Assembly: GCF_022749515.1 (NCBI RefSeq)
Contig: NZ_CP094242.1
Span: 1,612,001 to 1,676,000, forward strand
DNA from: Morococcus cerebrosus
GTDB taxonomy: Bacteria > Pseudomonadota > Gammaproteobacteria > Burkholderiales > Neisseriaceae
DNA length: 64,000 bases
Direction of reading: 5' to 3'
A program made the position numbers and the translations under genes. Each line of letters opens with the position of its first letter. Position 1 is the first letter of the stretch. The notes below the pieces were generated by a model that was not told the DNA's origin, ran no database searches, and worked only from the letters and a program-made list of their open reading frames with translations. This document shows, one piece after another, positions 18,796 to 42,277 of the stretch.

Positions 18796-18871
18796 TGGGG
18801 AGTCGTCAAGCGGTTAAGACACTGGATTTTGATTCCAGCATGCGAAGGTTCGAATCCTTCCTCCCCAGCCA
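18796..18871 (+). tRNA. tRNA-Gln(TTG), copy 1
   Basis: 76 bases. The TGGGGAG/CTCCCCA acceptor pairing, the anticodon stem CTGGA/TCCAG around TTTTGAT (anticodon TTG), the GGTTCGAATCC T-arm and an encoded CCA are all visible. It starts 6 bp after ispE. Confidence 0.97.
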
Positions 18872-18882
18872 AATCCCTTTGT

Positions 18883-18958
18883 TGGGGAGTCGTCAAGCGG
18901 TTAAGACACTGGATTTTGATTCCAGCATGCGAAGGTTCGAATCCTTCCTCCCCAGCCA
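18883..18958 (+). tRNA. tRNA-Gln(TTG), copy 2
   Basis: Identical by eye to copy 1 over all 76 bases, including the encoded CCA. The spacer from copy 1 is 11 bp. Confidence 0.97.
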
Positions 18959-18969
18959 GCACCCTTTAT

Positions 18970-19045
18970 TGGGGAGTCGTCAAGCGGTTAAGACACTGGA
19001 TTTTGATTCCAGCATGCGAAGGTTCGAATCCTTCCTCCCCAGCCA
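18970..19045 (+). tRNA. tRNA-Gln(TTG), copy 3
   Basis: Identical by eye to copies 1 and 2. The 11-bp spacer differs from the first spacer, so the repeat is limited to the tRNA itself. A terminator follows directly. Confidence 0.97.
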
Positions 19046-20339: not shown

Positions 20340-20912
20340 ATGACTTATGAAATTCAAGCCTCTGTTCGTGAAGCACAAGGCACTGGTGCGAGCCGCCGCC
20401 TGCGTCGCGAAGGCCAAATCCCCGGTATTTTGTACGGTGAAGGTCAAGAGCCCGTTGCAATTGCTGTGGATCACAAAACTGTATTCTACGCATTGGAAAA
20501 AGAATCTTTCCACACTGCACTGATCAAACTGTCCCTGAACGGTGAAACCAAAGACGTTATCGTCCGTGATTTCCAAATGCACCCATTCCGTCGCGAAGTT
20601 CAACATATCGACTTCCAGGCCGTTAAAGCCGACCAACCTGTACGCATCCGTGTTCCCCTGCACATTGTTAACGCTGAAAACTCTCAAGCCGTGAAACTGC
20701 AAGGCGGTCGCGTATCCCTGTTGAACACTACTATTGAAGTGGTTGCTTTGCCTGCCAACATCCCTGCATACTTGGATTTGGACTGCACTAAAGTCGTTGC
20801 CGGCGACATCCTTCACCTGTCTGACATCCAACTGCCTGAAGGTGTAGAAAGCGTTTCTCTGAAACGTAACGAAAACCTGGCGGTTGCTACCGTTACCGGT
20901 AAAAAACGCTAA
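20340..20912 (+). CDS. rplY: 50S ribosomal protein L25, long (CTC) form
   Basis: Binds 5S rRNA in the large subunit. 190 residues: the N-terminal L25 domain ([30 protein letters not shown]) plus the C-terminal TL5/CTC beta domain ([27 protein letters not shown] to the end), so this is the two-domain form, unlike the short E. coli L25. An AATTTGGAG site precedes the ATG. Probably cotranscribed with prs; a strong terminator follows. Confidence 0.96.
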
Positions 20913-21016: not shown

Positions 21017-21057
21017 TTGATTTGAATCAAAGCTCCAAATTGAGTTTCATTTATAAT
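21017..21057 (+). promoter_or_regulatory. FNR-activated promoter of a small RNA
   Basis: TTGATTTGAATCAA at 21017-21030 is a perfect match to the FNR consensus (TTGAT, four bases, ATCAA). TATAAT follows at 21052-21057. Taking the start near 21065 puts the box centre at -41.5, the class II activator position. No good -35 hexamer is present, as expected for an activator-dependent promoter. FNR itself is encoded at 39978-40712. Confidence 0.85.
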
Positions 21058-21064
21058 CGCTGAC

Positions 21065-21206
21065 ATTGGAACTGAGACGACATTTCTCAAAGTCCTCAAG
21101 ATTTTCTGATCAGTAGATGATACATCTGCTTTGATTTAATACTCTCTATCTCTTTCCTCTTGATGTGTGTGTGTTTGGGTGTGGCTGTTGCCACCCCTTT
21201 TTTTTG
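21065..21206 (+). ncRNA. aniS: Probable FNR-dependent small regulatory RNA (AniS-like)
   Basis: About 140 nt from the predicted start to a terminator in which GTGGC and GCCAC pair around TGTT, with outer GGG/CCC, followed by eight T. No reading frame with a ribosome site lies inside. A long unpaired CU-rich segment (CTCTCTATCTCTTTCCTC, 21143-21160) could pair with Shine-Dalgarno regions, typical of Hfq-dependent RNAs. Meningococcus has an FNR-induced RNA, AniS, and from memory it lies near an HTH gene and glnD as here. The structure is seen; the AniS identity and anaerobic role are inferred. Confidence 0.72.
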
Positions 21207-21274: not shown

Positions 21275-21592
21275 ATGAGCAATAAATTGACTCCGCCTAC
21301 CGAATTGCCTGATGAGCAGGATTTACGGGCGGTCTTGGCGTACAACATGCGGCTTTTCCGCGTGAATAAAGGCTGGTCTCAGGAAGAGCTGGCGCGGCAA
21401 TGCGGTTTGGACAGGACTTATGTATCGGCTGTGGAGCGCAAACGCTGGAACATTGCGTTGTCGAATATTGAAAAAATGGCGACGGCTTTGGGTGTGGCGG
21501 CGTATCAGTTGCTGCTGCCGCCGCAGGAGCTGCTAAACCTGATGACCAATCCCTCTGATGCCCAACAGAGGTCGTCTGAAAACGATATTTGA
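21275..21592 (+). CDS. XRE-family HTH transcriptional regulator
   Basis: 105 residues, essentially a single Cro/CI-type HTH at about residues 22-78: NMRLFRVNKGWSQEELARQCGLDRTYVSAVERKRWNIALSNIEKMATALGV. The scan WSQEELARQCGLDRTYVSAVERKR holds the recognition helix. The short C-terminal tail has no ligand domain, and the gene end overlaps an uptake sequence. It lies 48 bp before glnD and just after the candidate small RNA. Target genes are unknown. Confidence 0.88.
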   Translation: MSNKLTPPTELPDEQDLRAVLAYNMRLFRVNKGWSQEELARQCGLDRTYVSAVERKRWNIALSNIEKMATALGVAAYQLLLPPQELLNLMTNPSDAQQRSSENDI

Positions 21593-21639: not shown

Positions 21640-24201
21640 ATGTCTGCAAACCTGTCTTCAGCATTGGAAACCTTCAAACAGCAGCGTACTGCCGCCGAAG
21701 CGCATTATTTGAAAGCCAACCGCGTGTCGGTATTTTTCAGAGAATACACGGCGGCAGTCGAAACCTTGCTGGCGGCATTGTGGGCAGAGCATTTTCAAAA
21801 CAGCGCATTATGCCTGATGGCGACCGGCGGCTTCGGGCGCGGCGAACTGTATCCTTATTCTGATTTAGATTTGGCAGTCGTGTCGTCTGAAACCGTTTCA
21901 GACGACCTTCAGGAAAAAATTGCGGCTTTCGTGCAGGCTTTATGGGATATGAAACTTTCGCCGTCGGTCAAAAGCGGCACCGTTGACGAACTGTGCGAAA
22001 GCGTGCGCGATGATATTACGGGGGACACGGCGTTTTTAGAGGCCCGTTTTTTGTTCGGCAACTGCCAAACCGCGGACGAGTTGACGGAAAAAATGAACTC
22101 GCAACGCAATGTAGCCGCGTTTATCGAAGCTAAACTGGTGGAGATGGAACACCGCCATGCCAAATCGCAAGGTTCGGGAGCGGTATTGGAACCGAACATC
22201 AAAAGCTGTCCCGGCGGTCTGCGTGATATCCATACCCTGCTTTGGATAGCGAAGGCGCAAGGCTTAGCGGCCAACCTGCCTGCGCTGGTCAAACAAGGCA
22301 TTCTGACGCGCACCGAAGCCGGCATGCTTTCACACGGCTACCGCCGCCTCGCCCACATCCGCATCCATCTGCATTTAAACGCAAAACGCACCGAAGACCG
22401 CCTGCTGTTCGATTTGCAGCCGCAAGTCGCCGAAAGCATGGGCTATCAAGGCTTGAACCTCCGCCGCCAAAGCGAAGAATTGATGCGCGTGTTTTACCGC
22501 GCGATTAAAACCGTCAAACAACTGAGCGGCATCCTCACGCCCATGCTACAAAGCCGCGTTTCTTCGACGCCGATGCGCGTTACCCTGCGGATTGACGACG
22601 ACTACATCCAAGTGAACAACCAAATCGCTGCGCGACACACCGATATTTTTTTCAGACGACCCGAACACATTTTCAAAATCGTTGAAATCATGCAGCAGCG
22701 CAACGACATTACCGCGCTCGAACCGCAAACCCTGCGCGCTTGGTGGGGCGCGACGCGCAAAATCAACCGCAGCTTCTACCAAAATCCCGAAAACCGCCGC
22801 CGCTTCGCCGGCTTTTTCCGCCGCGGCAACGGACTGACCCAAACCCTGCGCTTTCTCAACCTCTACGGCGTGTTGGGCCGCTACCTGCCCGCGTGGGAAA
22901 AAATCGTCGGCCTGCTCCAGCATGACCTGTTCCACATCTATCCCGTGGACGACCACATCCTCGCCGTCGTCCGCAACGTCCGCCGTCTTGCCCTAGACAT
23001 GCACAGCCACGAGCTGCCCTACGCCTCCGCACTGATGCAGTCCTTTGAAAAACAAGACATCCTCTATCTCGCCGCCTTCTTCCACGACATCGCCAAAGGA
23101 CGCGGCGGCGACCATGCCGTACAAGGCATCGCAGACGCGCGCCAATTTGCCGCCGACCACTTCCTGACCGAAGAAGAAAGCAACCTGCTCGCCTGGCTGG
23201 TCGAAAACCACCTGCTCATGTCCACCGTCGCCCAAAAAGAAGACATCCAAGACCCCGACGTACTCGATGCCTTCTGCAAACGCGTACAAACCCACGAACG
23301 CCTCAGCGCACTCTACCTCCTGACCATTTCCGACATACGCGGCACCAATCCCAAACTGTGGAACGCATGGCGCGCCAGCCTGCTGGAAAGCCTGTTTCAC
23401 GCCGCCGGACGCTACCTCGCAGGCAACGGCGGCAACCCGCACGCCCTCTTCGGCCGCCGCCAACAAGAAGCCGCCGATTTGCTTACCCGCGCCGCCGTCC
23501 CCGAAAAACAGCAGAAAAAACTATGGAACGCGCTCGGTTCCGCCTACTTCGCCCGCCATCAGTCCCGCGAAATCCTGTGGCACGCTGCCAACCTCGTACA
23601 CGACTTTGAAACCCCCATCGTCCGCAGCCGCATCCTGCCCAAGAGCGACAGCTTCCAAGTCATGGTCTTCATGCCCAACGGATCGCGCCTGTTCGCCCGC
23701 CTCTGCCGCATCTTCAGCCGCCACGGTTTCGACATTCTCGCCGCCCGCGCCTTCATCACCGAACACGACTACATCCTCGACACCTTCATCGTACAAATCC
23801 CCTCGCAGCACGCCCCCGAAGACTACCCCGACATCCAAAGCGCGCTCGAAGCCGAACTCAACAGCTTTATCCACGGACACACCGTTGCCGAAACCCAAAG
23901 CCACAGCCGCCGCATCAGCCGCCGCAGCCGCTACATGCCAATTGCGCCAAGCATCACCATCACCCCCGAAGAAGACTACCCCGACTGGTACTCCGTCGAA
24001 ATCACCGCCGTCAACCGCCCTTTCCTGCTCGCCGACATGGCGGAAGTCTTCTTCGCCCACAACGTCAGCCTGCGCTACGCCAAAATTTCCACGCTGGACG
24101 AACGCGTCGAAGACAGCTTCATCGTCTTCAGCCCCGATTTGAAAAATCCGAAAACGCAGTCGTCGTTGAAACAGGCTTTGTTGGAACAATTATCGGTGTG
24201 A
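21640..24201 (+). CDS. glnD: [Protein-PII] uridylyltransferase / uridylyl-removing enzyme
   Basis: Glutamine sensor that uridylylates PII when nitrogen is short and removes UMP when it is plentiful. 853 residues in the standard order: nucleotidyltransferase domain with [16 protein letters not shown] at 63-78, then an HD hydrolase domain ([14 protein letters not shown] near 485), then two C-terminal ACT domains (about 680-760 and 790-850, the second starting [21 protein letters not shown]). All catalytic motifs look intact. Two uptake-sequence cores lie inside the coding region near 21890. It may share a transcript with the HTH gene. Confidence 0.97.
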
Positions 24202-39977: not shown

Positions 39978-40712
39978 TCAGATGGCGTGCGAACAGCCGG
40001 ATACCATTTTTTTGAGGGCTTGCGAGTCGAGGATTTTAATGTGTTTGTGTTCGACCGAAATTAGACCTTCATGGTGGAACTTGGACAGTGTGCGGCTGAC
40101 GGTTTCCAGTTTCAGTCCCAAATAGCTGCCGATTTCTTCGCGCGACATCCGCAAGATGAAATCATTAGCGGCAAATCCGCGCGAGTAAAGGCGTTGGGAT
40201 AAGTTCAGCAAAAACGCTGCCAGACGTTCTTCGGCGCGCATATTGCCCAAAAGCAGCATCACACCTTGGTCACGCACGATTTCGCGGCTCATCAACCGGA
40301 AAAAATGGCTTCTCAGGCTGGGGATGTTGTGTCCCAGCTCTTCGATGTGGGTGAAGGGCAGCTCACACACTTCGCTGTCTTCCAAAGCCACCGCGTCGCA
40401 GCTGTGGACATGGGAACAAATGCCGTCCATACCGATGAGTTCGCCGGACATAAAAAAGCCGGTAACCTGATCGCGACCGTCCTGACTGGCAACCGTGGTT
40501 TTGAAAAAACCGGCACGGATGGCAAACAGCGACGCGAAAGGCTCACCGGTGCGGAACAGATATTCACCCTTCTTCAAGCGGCGGCTCTGTCGGATGACCG
40601 CGTCCAATTGTGCAAACTCATTGGGCAAAAGCCCGACAGGCAGGCAGAGTTCACGCAGCGAACAGGAAGAACACAGGGTTTTCATCTGATGCATAGCATT
40701 GTGTGTGGTCAT
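39978..40712 (-). CDS. fnr: Fumarate/nitrate reduction regulator FNR
   Basis: Oxygen-sensing Crp/FNR-family regulator. 244 residues. N-terminal cysteines 14, 17 and 23 plus Cys116 (EVCELPF) can hold the 4Fe-4S cluster. The HTH near the C terminus reads SREEIGSYLGLKLETVSRTLSKFHHEGLI, with the E..SR contacts for TTGAT half-sites. Translation could start at MTTHN or at the later MKTLC. It is transcribed away from hemN, with a TTGAC/ATCAA box between them, so both may be under its control. Confidence 0.95.
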   Translation of the reverse strand: MTTHNAMHQMKTLCSSCSLRELCLPVGLLPNEFAQLDAVIRQSRRLKKGEYLFRTGEPFASLFAIRAGFFKTTVASQDGRDQVTGFFMSGELIGMDGICSHVHSCDAVALEDSEVCELPFTHIEELGHNIPSLRSHFFRLMSREIVRDQGVMLLLGNMRAEERLAAFLLNLSQRLYSRGFAANDFILRMSREEIGSYLGLKLETVSRTLSKFHHEGLISVEHKHIKILDSQALKKMVSGCSHAI

Positions 40713-40762: not shown

Positions 40763-40776
40763 TTGACACATATCAA
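40763..40776. promoter_or_regulatory. FNR box between fnr and hemN
   Basis: TTGACACATATCAA matches the FNR consensus at nine of ten fixed positions. It lies 51 bp before the fnr ATG and 80 bp before the hemN ATG. Activation of hemN in low oxygen and self-control of fnr are inferred. Confidence 0.82.
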
Positions 40777-40855: not shown

Positions 40856-42277
40856 ATGAAAGTAATACCGATACAAAATAATCACAATAGAAACGATGAC
40901 AAGCCTGAGTTCGACCGCGAACTCATCGCCAGCCTTCCTTCCAGCGGTCCGCGCTACACTTCCTACCCCACAGCCGACCGTTTTCATGACGGATTTCGCG
41001 AAGCCGAATATATCAATGCCTTGAATCAGCGCGGTATGGGGGCTTTGAACAAGCCCCTTTCGCTTTATATCCACATCCCCTTCTGCAACACCATTTGTTA
41101 CTACTGCGGCTGCAATAAAATCATCACCAAAGACAAAAGCCGCGCCGATGCCTACATCGAATACCTTGAAAAAGAAATGGAGCTGCTCGCCCCGCATCTG
41201 GGCGGACGGCATCAGCTCGCGCAACTGCACTTCGGCGGCGGTACGCCGACTTTCTTGAGCGACGACCAAATCGAACGCGTATTCCGCATGATACGCAAAC
41301 ACTTCCAACTGATCCCTGGCGGCGAATACTCCATCGAAATCGACCCGCGCAAAGTCAGCCGCGAAACTGTCCTCATGCTCGGTAAGCTCGGCTTCAACCG
41401 CATGAGCGTCGGCATTCAGGACTTTGATCCCAAAGTGCAGGCAGCAGTCAACCGCATCCAAAGCTACGACGAAACCAAAAAAGTCATCGATGCCGCCCGC
41501 GAAGCCGGATTCAAATCCGTCAGCGTCGATTTGATTTACGGTCTGCCGCACCAAACCGCCGAAAGCATTAAAACCACCATCGACACTGTCTTGTCGCTCG
41601 ATCCCGACCGCCTTGCCCTTTATCACTACGCCCACCTGCCGCATATCTTCAAGCCGCAACGCCGCATCGATACCGAAGCCGTTCCCGGCAGCGAAGAAAA
41701 ACTCGATATGCTGCAATACTGCGTCCAAACCCTGACCGAACGCGGCTACGTCTTCATCGGTATGGACCACTTCGCCAAACCCGATGACGAACTTTCCATC
41801 GCCCTCAAAGAAGGCTTCCTCCAGCGCAACTTCCAAGGCTACTCGACCTACGCGGACTGCGATTTAGTTGCCATCGGCGTATCCTCCATCGGCAAAATCG
41901 GCAGCACCTACTCCCAAAACGAACGCGACATCGACGCCTACTATGCCGCGCTCGATGCCGGACACCTGCCCATCATGCGCGGCTACCAACTCAATCAGGA
42001 CGACCTTTTGCGCCGCAATATCATCCAAGATTTGATGTGCCGTTTCTCCTTGGATTACCGAATCTACGAAAGCGTGTTCGGTATCCCGTTCGACCGCTAT
42101 TTCAAAGACGAACTTGCCGACTTGGAACAACTTGCCTCCCTCGGACTCGTCCGCCTGAAACCGCACGGACTGACCGTTACCCCCAAAGGCCGCTTCCTGA
42201 TACGCAATATCGCCATGGTGTTTGACTACCACCTGCGCCACAGGGAAACTAAAGCCCAATATTCGCAAACAGTGTAA
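40856..42277 (+). CDS. hemN: Oxygen-independent coproporphyrinogen III oxidase
   Basis: Radical SAM enzyme that decarboxylates coproporphyrinogen III in anaerobic heme synthesis. 473 residues. The cluster motif is IPFCNTICYYCGCNK with Cys77, 81 and 84 plus Cys86, and HFGGGTPTFLSDDQ follows. SVGIQDFDPKVQAAVNR and the C-terminal HemN domain are present, so this is true HemN rather than a HemW-type heme chaperone. The FNR box upstream fits anaerobic induction. Confidence 0.96.
   Translation: MKVIPIQNNHNRNDDKPEFDRELIASLPSSGPRYTSYPTADRFHDGFREAEYINALNQRGMGALNKPLSLYIHIPFCNTICYYCGCNKIITKDKSRADAYIEYLEKEMELLAPHLGGRHQLAQLHFGGGTPTFLSDDQIERVFRMIRKHFQLIPGGEYSIEIDPRKVSRETVLMLGKLGFNRMSVGIQDFDPKVQAAVNRIQSYDETKKVIDAAREAGFKSVSVDLIYGLPHQTAESIKTTIDTVLSLDPDRLALYHYAHLPHIFKPQRRIDTEAVPGSEEKLDMLQYCVQTLTERGYVFIGMDHFAKPDDELSIALKEGFLQRNFQGYSTYADCDLVAIGVSSIGKIGSTYSQNERDIDAYYAALDAGHLPIMRGYQLNQDDLLRRNIIQDLMCRFSLDYRIYESVFGIPFDRYFKDELADLEQLASLGLVRLKPHGLTVTPKGRFLIRNIAMVFDYHLRHRETKAQYSQTV

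Follow-up and report, generated by a model that had tools for sequence, protein, structure and literature searches.

The closest described counterpart of the locus analyzed here is AniS/FnrS, a small RNA of Neisseria meningitidis and N. gonorrhoeae, for which Fantappie (2011) is reportedly the primary AniS paper and Tanwer (2017) is said to be the FnrS target paper. In the parts of PMC3032703 cited here, the gonococcal FnrS is described as a 108 nt RNA with a class-II FNR box at -41.5 and a bacterioferritin gene upstream, which shows strong anaerobic induction (260-fold in a lacZ fusion), and the FnrS of E. coli is also presented as an RNA with class-II FNR activation at -41.5. AniS is listed as Hfq-associated in the cited portion of a meningococcal transcriptome study (PMC4423775), and the ProQ protein, according to the cited sections of PMC11912907, binds the 3′ end of AniS, for which a single-stranded stretch of at least 8 nt has to precede the hairpin.

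Another system of relevance is the SgrS RNA, which, as far as the excerpt of PMC4021124 used here goes, has a 5′ ORF of 43 aa and a nearly invariant pairing region of approximately 13 nt before the terminator, and has lost this ORF in Yersinia.

The locus under study lies in the window, i.e., the whole 64 kb stretch of DNA that was analyzed, whose organism would be a commensal, since its nearest relatives by glnD (98-99%) include a genome (G031) taken as Neisseria sicca. The features of the locus and its surroundings are as follows:

20340..20912, + strand: gene of ribosomal protein L25, the upstream neighbor (PF01386, 95.5 bits)
21017..21030, + strand: FNR box TTGATTTGAATCAA, exact, with its center at -41.5
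21052..21057, + strand: -10 element TATAAT, 21 nt past the FNR box
21065..21152, + strand: variable 5′ domain of 88 nt, occupied in coding relatives by the DUF3149 ORF
21109..21205, + strand: match to the Rfam family RF02274 (AniS), score 68.7 bits (gathering cut-off 50)
21153..21169, + strand: invariant segment TTTCCTCTTGATGTGTG of 17 nt, the presumed pairing segment, of anti-Shine-Dalgarno type
21165..21174, + strand: GT tract of 5 units (3-6 units over 89 loci)
21177..21205, + strand: intrinsic terminator hairpin (stem 21177-21197) with a T8 tail (21198-21205)
21275..21592, + strand: HTH (Xre-type) gene, a downstream neighbor (PF01381, 44.1 bits)
21640..24201, + strand: glnD, a downstream neighbor (PF08335 GlnD_UR_UTase, 142.7 bits)
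39978..40712, - strand: fnr, the presumed activator (NF008365, 249.1 bits, cut-off 228)

The -41.5 rule predicts a start at 21065 and thus an RNA of 141 nt ending at approximately 21205, and the same rule, when worked out by hand for the gonococcal locus (L005), arrives at an AUG that is the FnrS start published in the cited part of PMC3032703. The FNR box is the sole zero-mismatch site of the window, in which 8 sites with no more than one mismatch were counted, compared with the 2.54 expected. The 141 nt transcript contains no complete ORF of at least 20 aa, nor was a small ORF of the SgrS/SgrT type found upstream of the pairing region of this locus, and a 29-codon frame that opens at 21163 with an ATG continues through the terminator as far as 21252, i.e., beyond the expected 3′ end.

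The initial annotation, which had been made from the letters alone, had proposed a perfect FNR box at -41.5, a TATAAT 21 bp after it, the absence of a coding frame, a CU-rich run at 21143-21160, and a strong terminator, all of which were recovered, and it had also recognized the locus as a counterpart of meningococcal AniS, which it placed near glnD. This identification holds, given the score of the RF02274 covariance model and the position of xre-glnD next to both the window locus and the gonococcal locus (G022). The GT repeat that it had singled out as unusual and possibly variable in length (TGTGTGTGTGTTTGG, 21164-21178) is present, but its length varies only modestly between species, and the candidate of a hypervariable repeat was rejected given the range of 3-6 units.

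The window locus is, then, AniS, and by itself it adds one more member to a family already described, what is new being its probable coding ancestry. A single AniS copy was found in the whole genome (G000, one contig), and it is mainly the 3′ half of the RF02274 match that aligns well, the 5′ domain having a detectable likeness only to those of three near relatives (G026, G031, and G034). As regards the 5′ stem-loop, single-stranded middle, and terminator of AniS, hairpins are predicted in the RNA of the window, whose folding is somewhat more stable than that of shuffles (z of -2.12, 6 of the 200 being equally stable), and the best structure has weak pairing in the middle. Kinship to the E. 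coli FnrS, for which Rfam presumably includes a family, was also considered, and was rejected, as there is no such match among those listed for the window.

Some further observations were made in the surroundings of the locus. A terminator-like site is found 3′ of the L25 gene, and three tandem tRNA-Gln(TTG) genes lie at 18796-19045, spaced at 87 nt. Between the divergent fnr and hemN (40856-42277) genes, there is an FNR-type box with one mismatch (TTGACACATATCAA, 40763-40776), through which Fnr autoregulation and the control of hemN would be possible.

In a covariance search of relatives, of the kind suggested by the initial annotation for Neisseria genomes, RF02274 matches 74 of the 83 Neisseriaceae genomes at an E of 0.001 or lower, 37 of them above the cut-off. 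Five loci were missed by Rfam, four being found through the DUF3149 gene (G058, G061, G064, and G066) and one by pattern (G078), which raises the total to 79/83 genomes with the core. As only 37 of the 74 genomes pass the cut-off and five more loci were missed, the Rfam model, which is tied to one 5′ domain, appears to under-call the AniS family.

Outside the Neisseriaceae, among the 399 genomes sampled in the order, the exact 17-mer is confined to one family, where it occurs in 10 of the 12 genomes sampled. This second family, which we take to be the Chromobacteriaceae (including Aquitalea, Vogesella, and Gulbenkiania), extends the range of AniS/FnrS and brings the set to 89 core loci, 79 from the Neisseriaceae and 10 from the second family. 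A scan of named genomes, whose 67 loci overlap the first set, adds Chromobacterium, Paludibacterium, Snodgrassella, Eikenella, Conchiformibius, and Alysiella.

No core was found in four Neisseriaceae genomes (G055, G056, G057, and G059), where none of the 12 sites examined, from the 22 with one mismatch, has both a GT tract and a terminator. Among these genomes, G057 has a partial FNR-type match, and G059, which is 85% complete, a full one. There is no HTH_Crp_2 match in G055, and that of G056 is a MarR-type protein (MarR_2 42.8 bits vs. HTH_Crp_2 27.3 bits), so that these two genomes have neither a detected Fnr-type protein nor an AniS core. Two candidates were set aside. A core-like site of G056 (L230) was not counted, since it follows its 10/10 box at a distance of 44 nt, which is too short for the -10 spacing, and it has no GT tract, nor is a terminator in view. 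A match with one mismatch (L098) was discarded as there is no FNR box nearby.

With the box and the hexamer selected together, as the best-matching pair in the 420 nt upstream, all 89 loci had an FNR box, with 10/10 positions matched in 33, nine in 46, and eight in 10, and all 89 had a -10-like hexamer, at a spacing of 21 nt in 74 and of 22 nt in 15. When 300 nt stretches from upstream of other DUF3149 genes were shuffled, a box with nine or more matches arose in 0.6%, and one with eight or more in 9%.

The 74/74 loci found by Rfam all have exactly the same segment TTTCCTCTTGATGTGTG, while the 12 preceding bases are each shared by no more than 70%. The GT tract has 5 units in 51/89 loci, 4 in 34, 3 in three, and 6 in one. 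A terminator hairpin was found in 84/89 loci, with 25 different stem starts. At the likeness threshold used, 21 groups are distinguished among the non-coding 5′ domains of 37 loci. In 14 loci of the genus g10 (Snodgrassella; L048, L052, L054, L058, L060, L061, L063, L064, L066, L071-L074, and L226), AniS is reduced to the pairing segment and the terminator, with a 5′ part of only 10-25 nt, and the shortest RNAs would therefore be of approximately 61 nt. The 17 nt and the terminator are the likely functional core.

AniS adjoins xre-glnD in 20 of the 67 genomes in which both were located, including that of the window and the gonococcal one (G022), and all 20 loci are non-coding and belong to the clade that includes the window and the gonococcus, while the 47 loci that do not adjoin glnD are divided into 27 coding and 20 non-coding.

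The coding loci are those in which a DUF3149 ORF of 41-49 aa stands between the promoter and TTTCCTCTTGATGTGTG, as is the case in 38/89 loci (31 from the Neisseriaceae and seven from the second family), with 3-59 nt between the end of the ORF and the segment. In 37 of these 38 loci, the small ORF, the 3′ segment, and the terminator hairpin occur together. Coding loci also make up 38/67 of the named-genome set, including all seven of Chromobacterium, with one locus (L112) being cut before the promoter. The Pfam family PF11346 (DUF3149) is above its cut-off in 33/83 Neisseriaceae genomes and in the DUF3149 proteins tested singly, two from the aniS locus and three from separate loci. The ORF of G081 scores 19.0 bits, under the cut-off of 23.2.

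The ORF is under purifying selection, dN being lower than dS in 39/39 usable pairs (of 92 compared, the pairs not being independent), with a median dN/dS of 0.11. The protein, of approximately 44 aa, is predicted from its sequence to be a single membrane helix. In the literature searched, no mention of DUF3149, PF11346, or RF02274 was found, and on a dual-function RNA of Neisseria with FNR and a small protein, only the meningococcal transcriptome study (PMC4423775) came up. For this domain of unknown function, the loci provide a lead, that of a possible control by oxygen via Fnr in several families of Burkholderiales.

As approximately two-fifths of the related loci also encode this tiny membrane protein, the stand-alone AniS looks like a leftover messenger end. 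The explanation preferred here, which is held with considerable confidence, is that the RNA of the window is AniS and, by descent, the 3′ end of an FNR-driven, SgrS/SgrT-like DUF3149 messenger that has repeatedly been turned non-coding, which would provide AniS/FnrS with a likely origin. The ancestor of the Neisseriaceae and Chromobacteriaceae would have had one RNA, with a 5′ DUF3149 ORF of approximately 44 aa and a 3′ UTR that contained the pairing segment and the terminator, and some 11 losses of the ORF would have left stand-alone RNAs with unlike 5′ ends. In the window organism, a fall in oxygen would lead Fnr to bind the box at -41.5 and to activate the non-coding RNA, which would probably be held by Hfq and ProQ, and the pairing of its segment UUUCCUCUUGAUGUGUG with the Shine-Dalgarno regions of mRNAs would reduce their translation.

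The evidence for repeated loss comes from a tree of glnD, i.e., one gene analyzed by a quick method in a recombining group, with 82 of the 92 matches (80 from the Neisseriaceae and 12 from the second family), on which the coding and non-coding states need 11 changes, counted without direction. These are read as 11 losses of the ORF if the tree is rooted on the second family, and the well-supported branches force at least 10 changes for the non-coding group. One of the losses accounts for the whole clade that contains the window and the gonococcus, with its 23 sampled species. Eight g10 (Snodgrassella) genomes, G005, and G056 are absent from the tree, as are 4/38 coding loci, and no glnD match was found in G036, G007, and G062.

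The 11 changes having no direction, they would also be accommodated if AniS were ancestrally a pure non-coding RNA into which the DUF3149 ORF had been inserted several times, between the promoter and the core, and core-less DUF3149 genes do occur in other parts of the order. This alternative is nevertheless improbable, given that the coding forms of both families share a Fer2-type neighbor, that broken copies of the ORF exist (at aniS in G052 and at a separate site in G050), and that FNR boxes are already seen before DUF3149 genes in other families. The Fer2-type gene, the domain of which was checked in G011, precedes the locus in 21 genomes from the two families and follows it in G066, and it likely marks the ancestral site.

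Loss in place is seen, as far as gene order goes, where the neighbors are the same. The non-coding G037 has the same neighbors on both sides as the coding G033 and G048, and the same downstream ones as the coding G014, and the non-coding G003 and the coding G004 (Eikenella) share their upstream neighbors.

A DUF3149 profile built from Neisseria, run over the 46 genomes of the genus, matches 21 and finds none in 25. Sixteen of the matches are at aniS, three are separate and intact (G023, G038, and G041), and two are broken, one of them separate (G050, N. weixii, in which the copy is broken in two frames) and the other at aniS (G052), where the remnant has an alignment score of 114, the best of 60 shuffles reaching 42. 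The 5′ domains of G017 and G037 are barely above their shuffles (38 vs. 36 and 48 vs. 40, respectively). A vestige of the ORF was also considered for the 5′ domain of the window and was rejected, its score of 30 being equaled by 21/60 shuffles.

Neither PF11346 nor the Neisseria-built profile found a DUF3149 in the genome of the window, and the 5′ part of the locus is unlike the coding forms, as would be expected if it were a decayed, inactive relic of a DUF3149 gene. A relic of this type is highly improbable, however, at a locus where the 10/10 FNR box, the -10 element, the segment, and the terminator are all intact, in a genome in which Fnr is present, and whose gonococcal counterpart, similarly devoid of the ORF, is strongly induced according to the cited part of PMC3032703. 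Together, the loci form a natural series, from coding to broken, non-coding, and minimal RNA, which lets the repeated change from messenger to small RNA be studied.

The association between DUF3149 and FNR boxes is also found outside the two families, where a box of at least nine matches lies 50-130 nt upstream of the start codon in 11/42 DUF3149 genes and is lacking in the other 31, compared with 2/224 other ORF starts in the same loci, the boxed genes being from 6/19 families tested. The sample comprised 45 loci (the 30 best-scoring and 15 hand-picked) from 133 genomes with a match, of which three were dropped, as no ORF was found, and two of the 42 were in the wrong frame and were kept as counted; L169/L172 and L189/L190 are near-copies. 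Boxes of 9-10 matches, 63-108 nt before the start, were observed in L168, L169, L170, L172, L179, L191, L203, L205, L207, L213, and L215. Given these boxed genes, the control of DUF3149 by FNR may predate AniS.

The initial annotation had proposed target prediction with the 21143-21160 segment. A search by pattern for sequences complementary to the pairing segment did yield candidate sites, but few of them. In G000, there are eight such sites, compared with four for a control pattern, and only 1/8 is before an ORF of more than 65 codons. For example, in L362 of this genome, an 11 nt perfect complement (ACATCAAGAGG) overlies the ribosome site of a gene of at least 501 codons, open at the end of the locus, that encodes a Major Facilitator protein (PF07690). 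A transposase-like ORF (HTH_38 and rve, L362 2963-1998) lies just upstream of this gene. Candidate targets were also found in the gonococcal G022, an alpha/beta-hydrolase gene (L355), and in N. wadsworthii (G048), a hydroxyphenylpyruvate dioxygenase gene (L363). The duplex energies of the candidate sites are biased, because the sites were first chosen by pattern.

This paucity of targets would suit an alternative in which the 17 nt segment is only a part of the terminator or stability signal of the DUF3149 messenger, with no trans-acting seed, and has been kept in the non-coding species as a terminator stabilized by Hfq or ProQ, which would also agree with the single strand that ProQ, in the sections cited above, requires at the 3′ end of AniS. 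A segment that is invariant while the adjoining hairpin varies in its stem starts, in an RNA reported as Hfq-associated in the cited portion of the transcriptome study, makes this alternative unlikely, if somewhat less so than repeated insertion of the ORF.

The 3′ part would presumably be active in the coding species as well. In a further reading, which is rather probable, the transcript of the coding species (for example, Aquitalea, Chromobacterium, Neisseria wadsworthii, and N. dentiae) would be a dual-function RNA that yields both the DUF3149 membrane microprotein and a trans-acting RNA in response to one anaerobic signal, and the AniS of the pathogens would be the RNA half, having outlived the protein. 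The two halves would also have been split into two FNR-boxed genes, and this in three or more lineages (N. iguanae, two Neisseria MAGs, and Vogesella). Alongside a non-coding aniS, N. iguanae (G023), G038, G041, and three Vogesella have DUF3149 at another site, where it has an FNR box of its own and lacks the core.

Compared with the known systems, the window locus is closest to the AniS/FnrS of N. meningitidis and N. gonorrhoeae, with which it shares the -41.5 box, a near-identical 3′ half, and, in the gonococcal G022, the Xre-glnD neighborhood. It differs from them in its 88 nt 5′ domain, which is unlike that of the pathogens, and from the gonococcal FnrS also in its length (141 nt vs. 108 nt) and in its upstream neighbor, which is the L25 gene rather than bacterioferritin. 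The ORF of the coding relatives belongs to DUF3149 (PF11346), a family with no member found in the window's genome. Finally, the coding relatives resemble the SgrS/SgrT of enterics in their 5′ ORF of approximately 43 aa, nearly invariant short pairing region close to the 3′ end, terminator, and ORF loss in some lineages, and differ from it in their regulator (Fnr vs. SgrR) and in their protein, so that the coding form of AniS may be described as SgrS-like in layout and not as a member of SgrS, a likeness for which no kinship of sequence is claimed.
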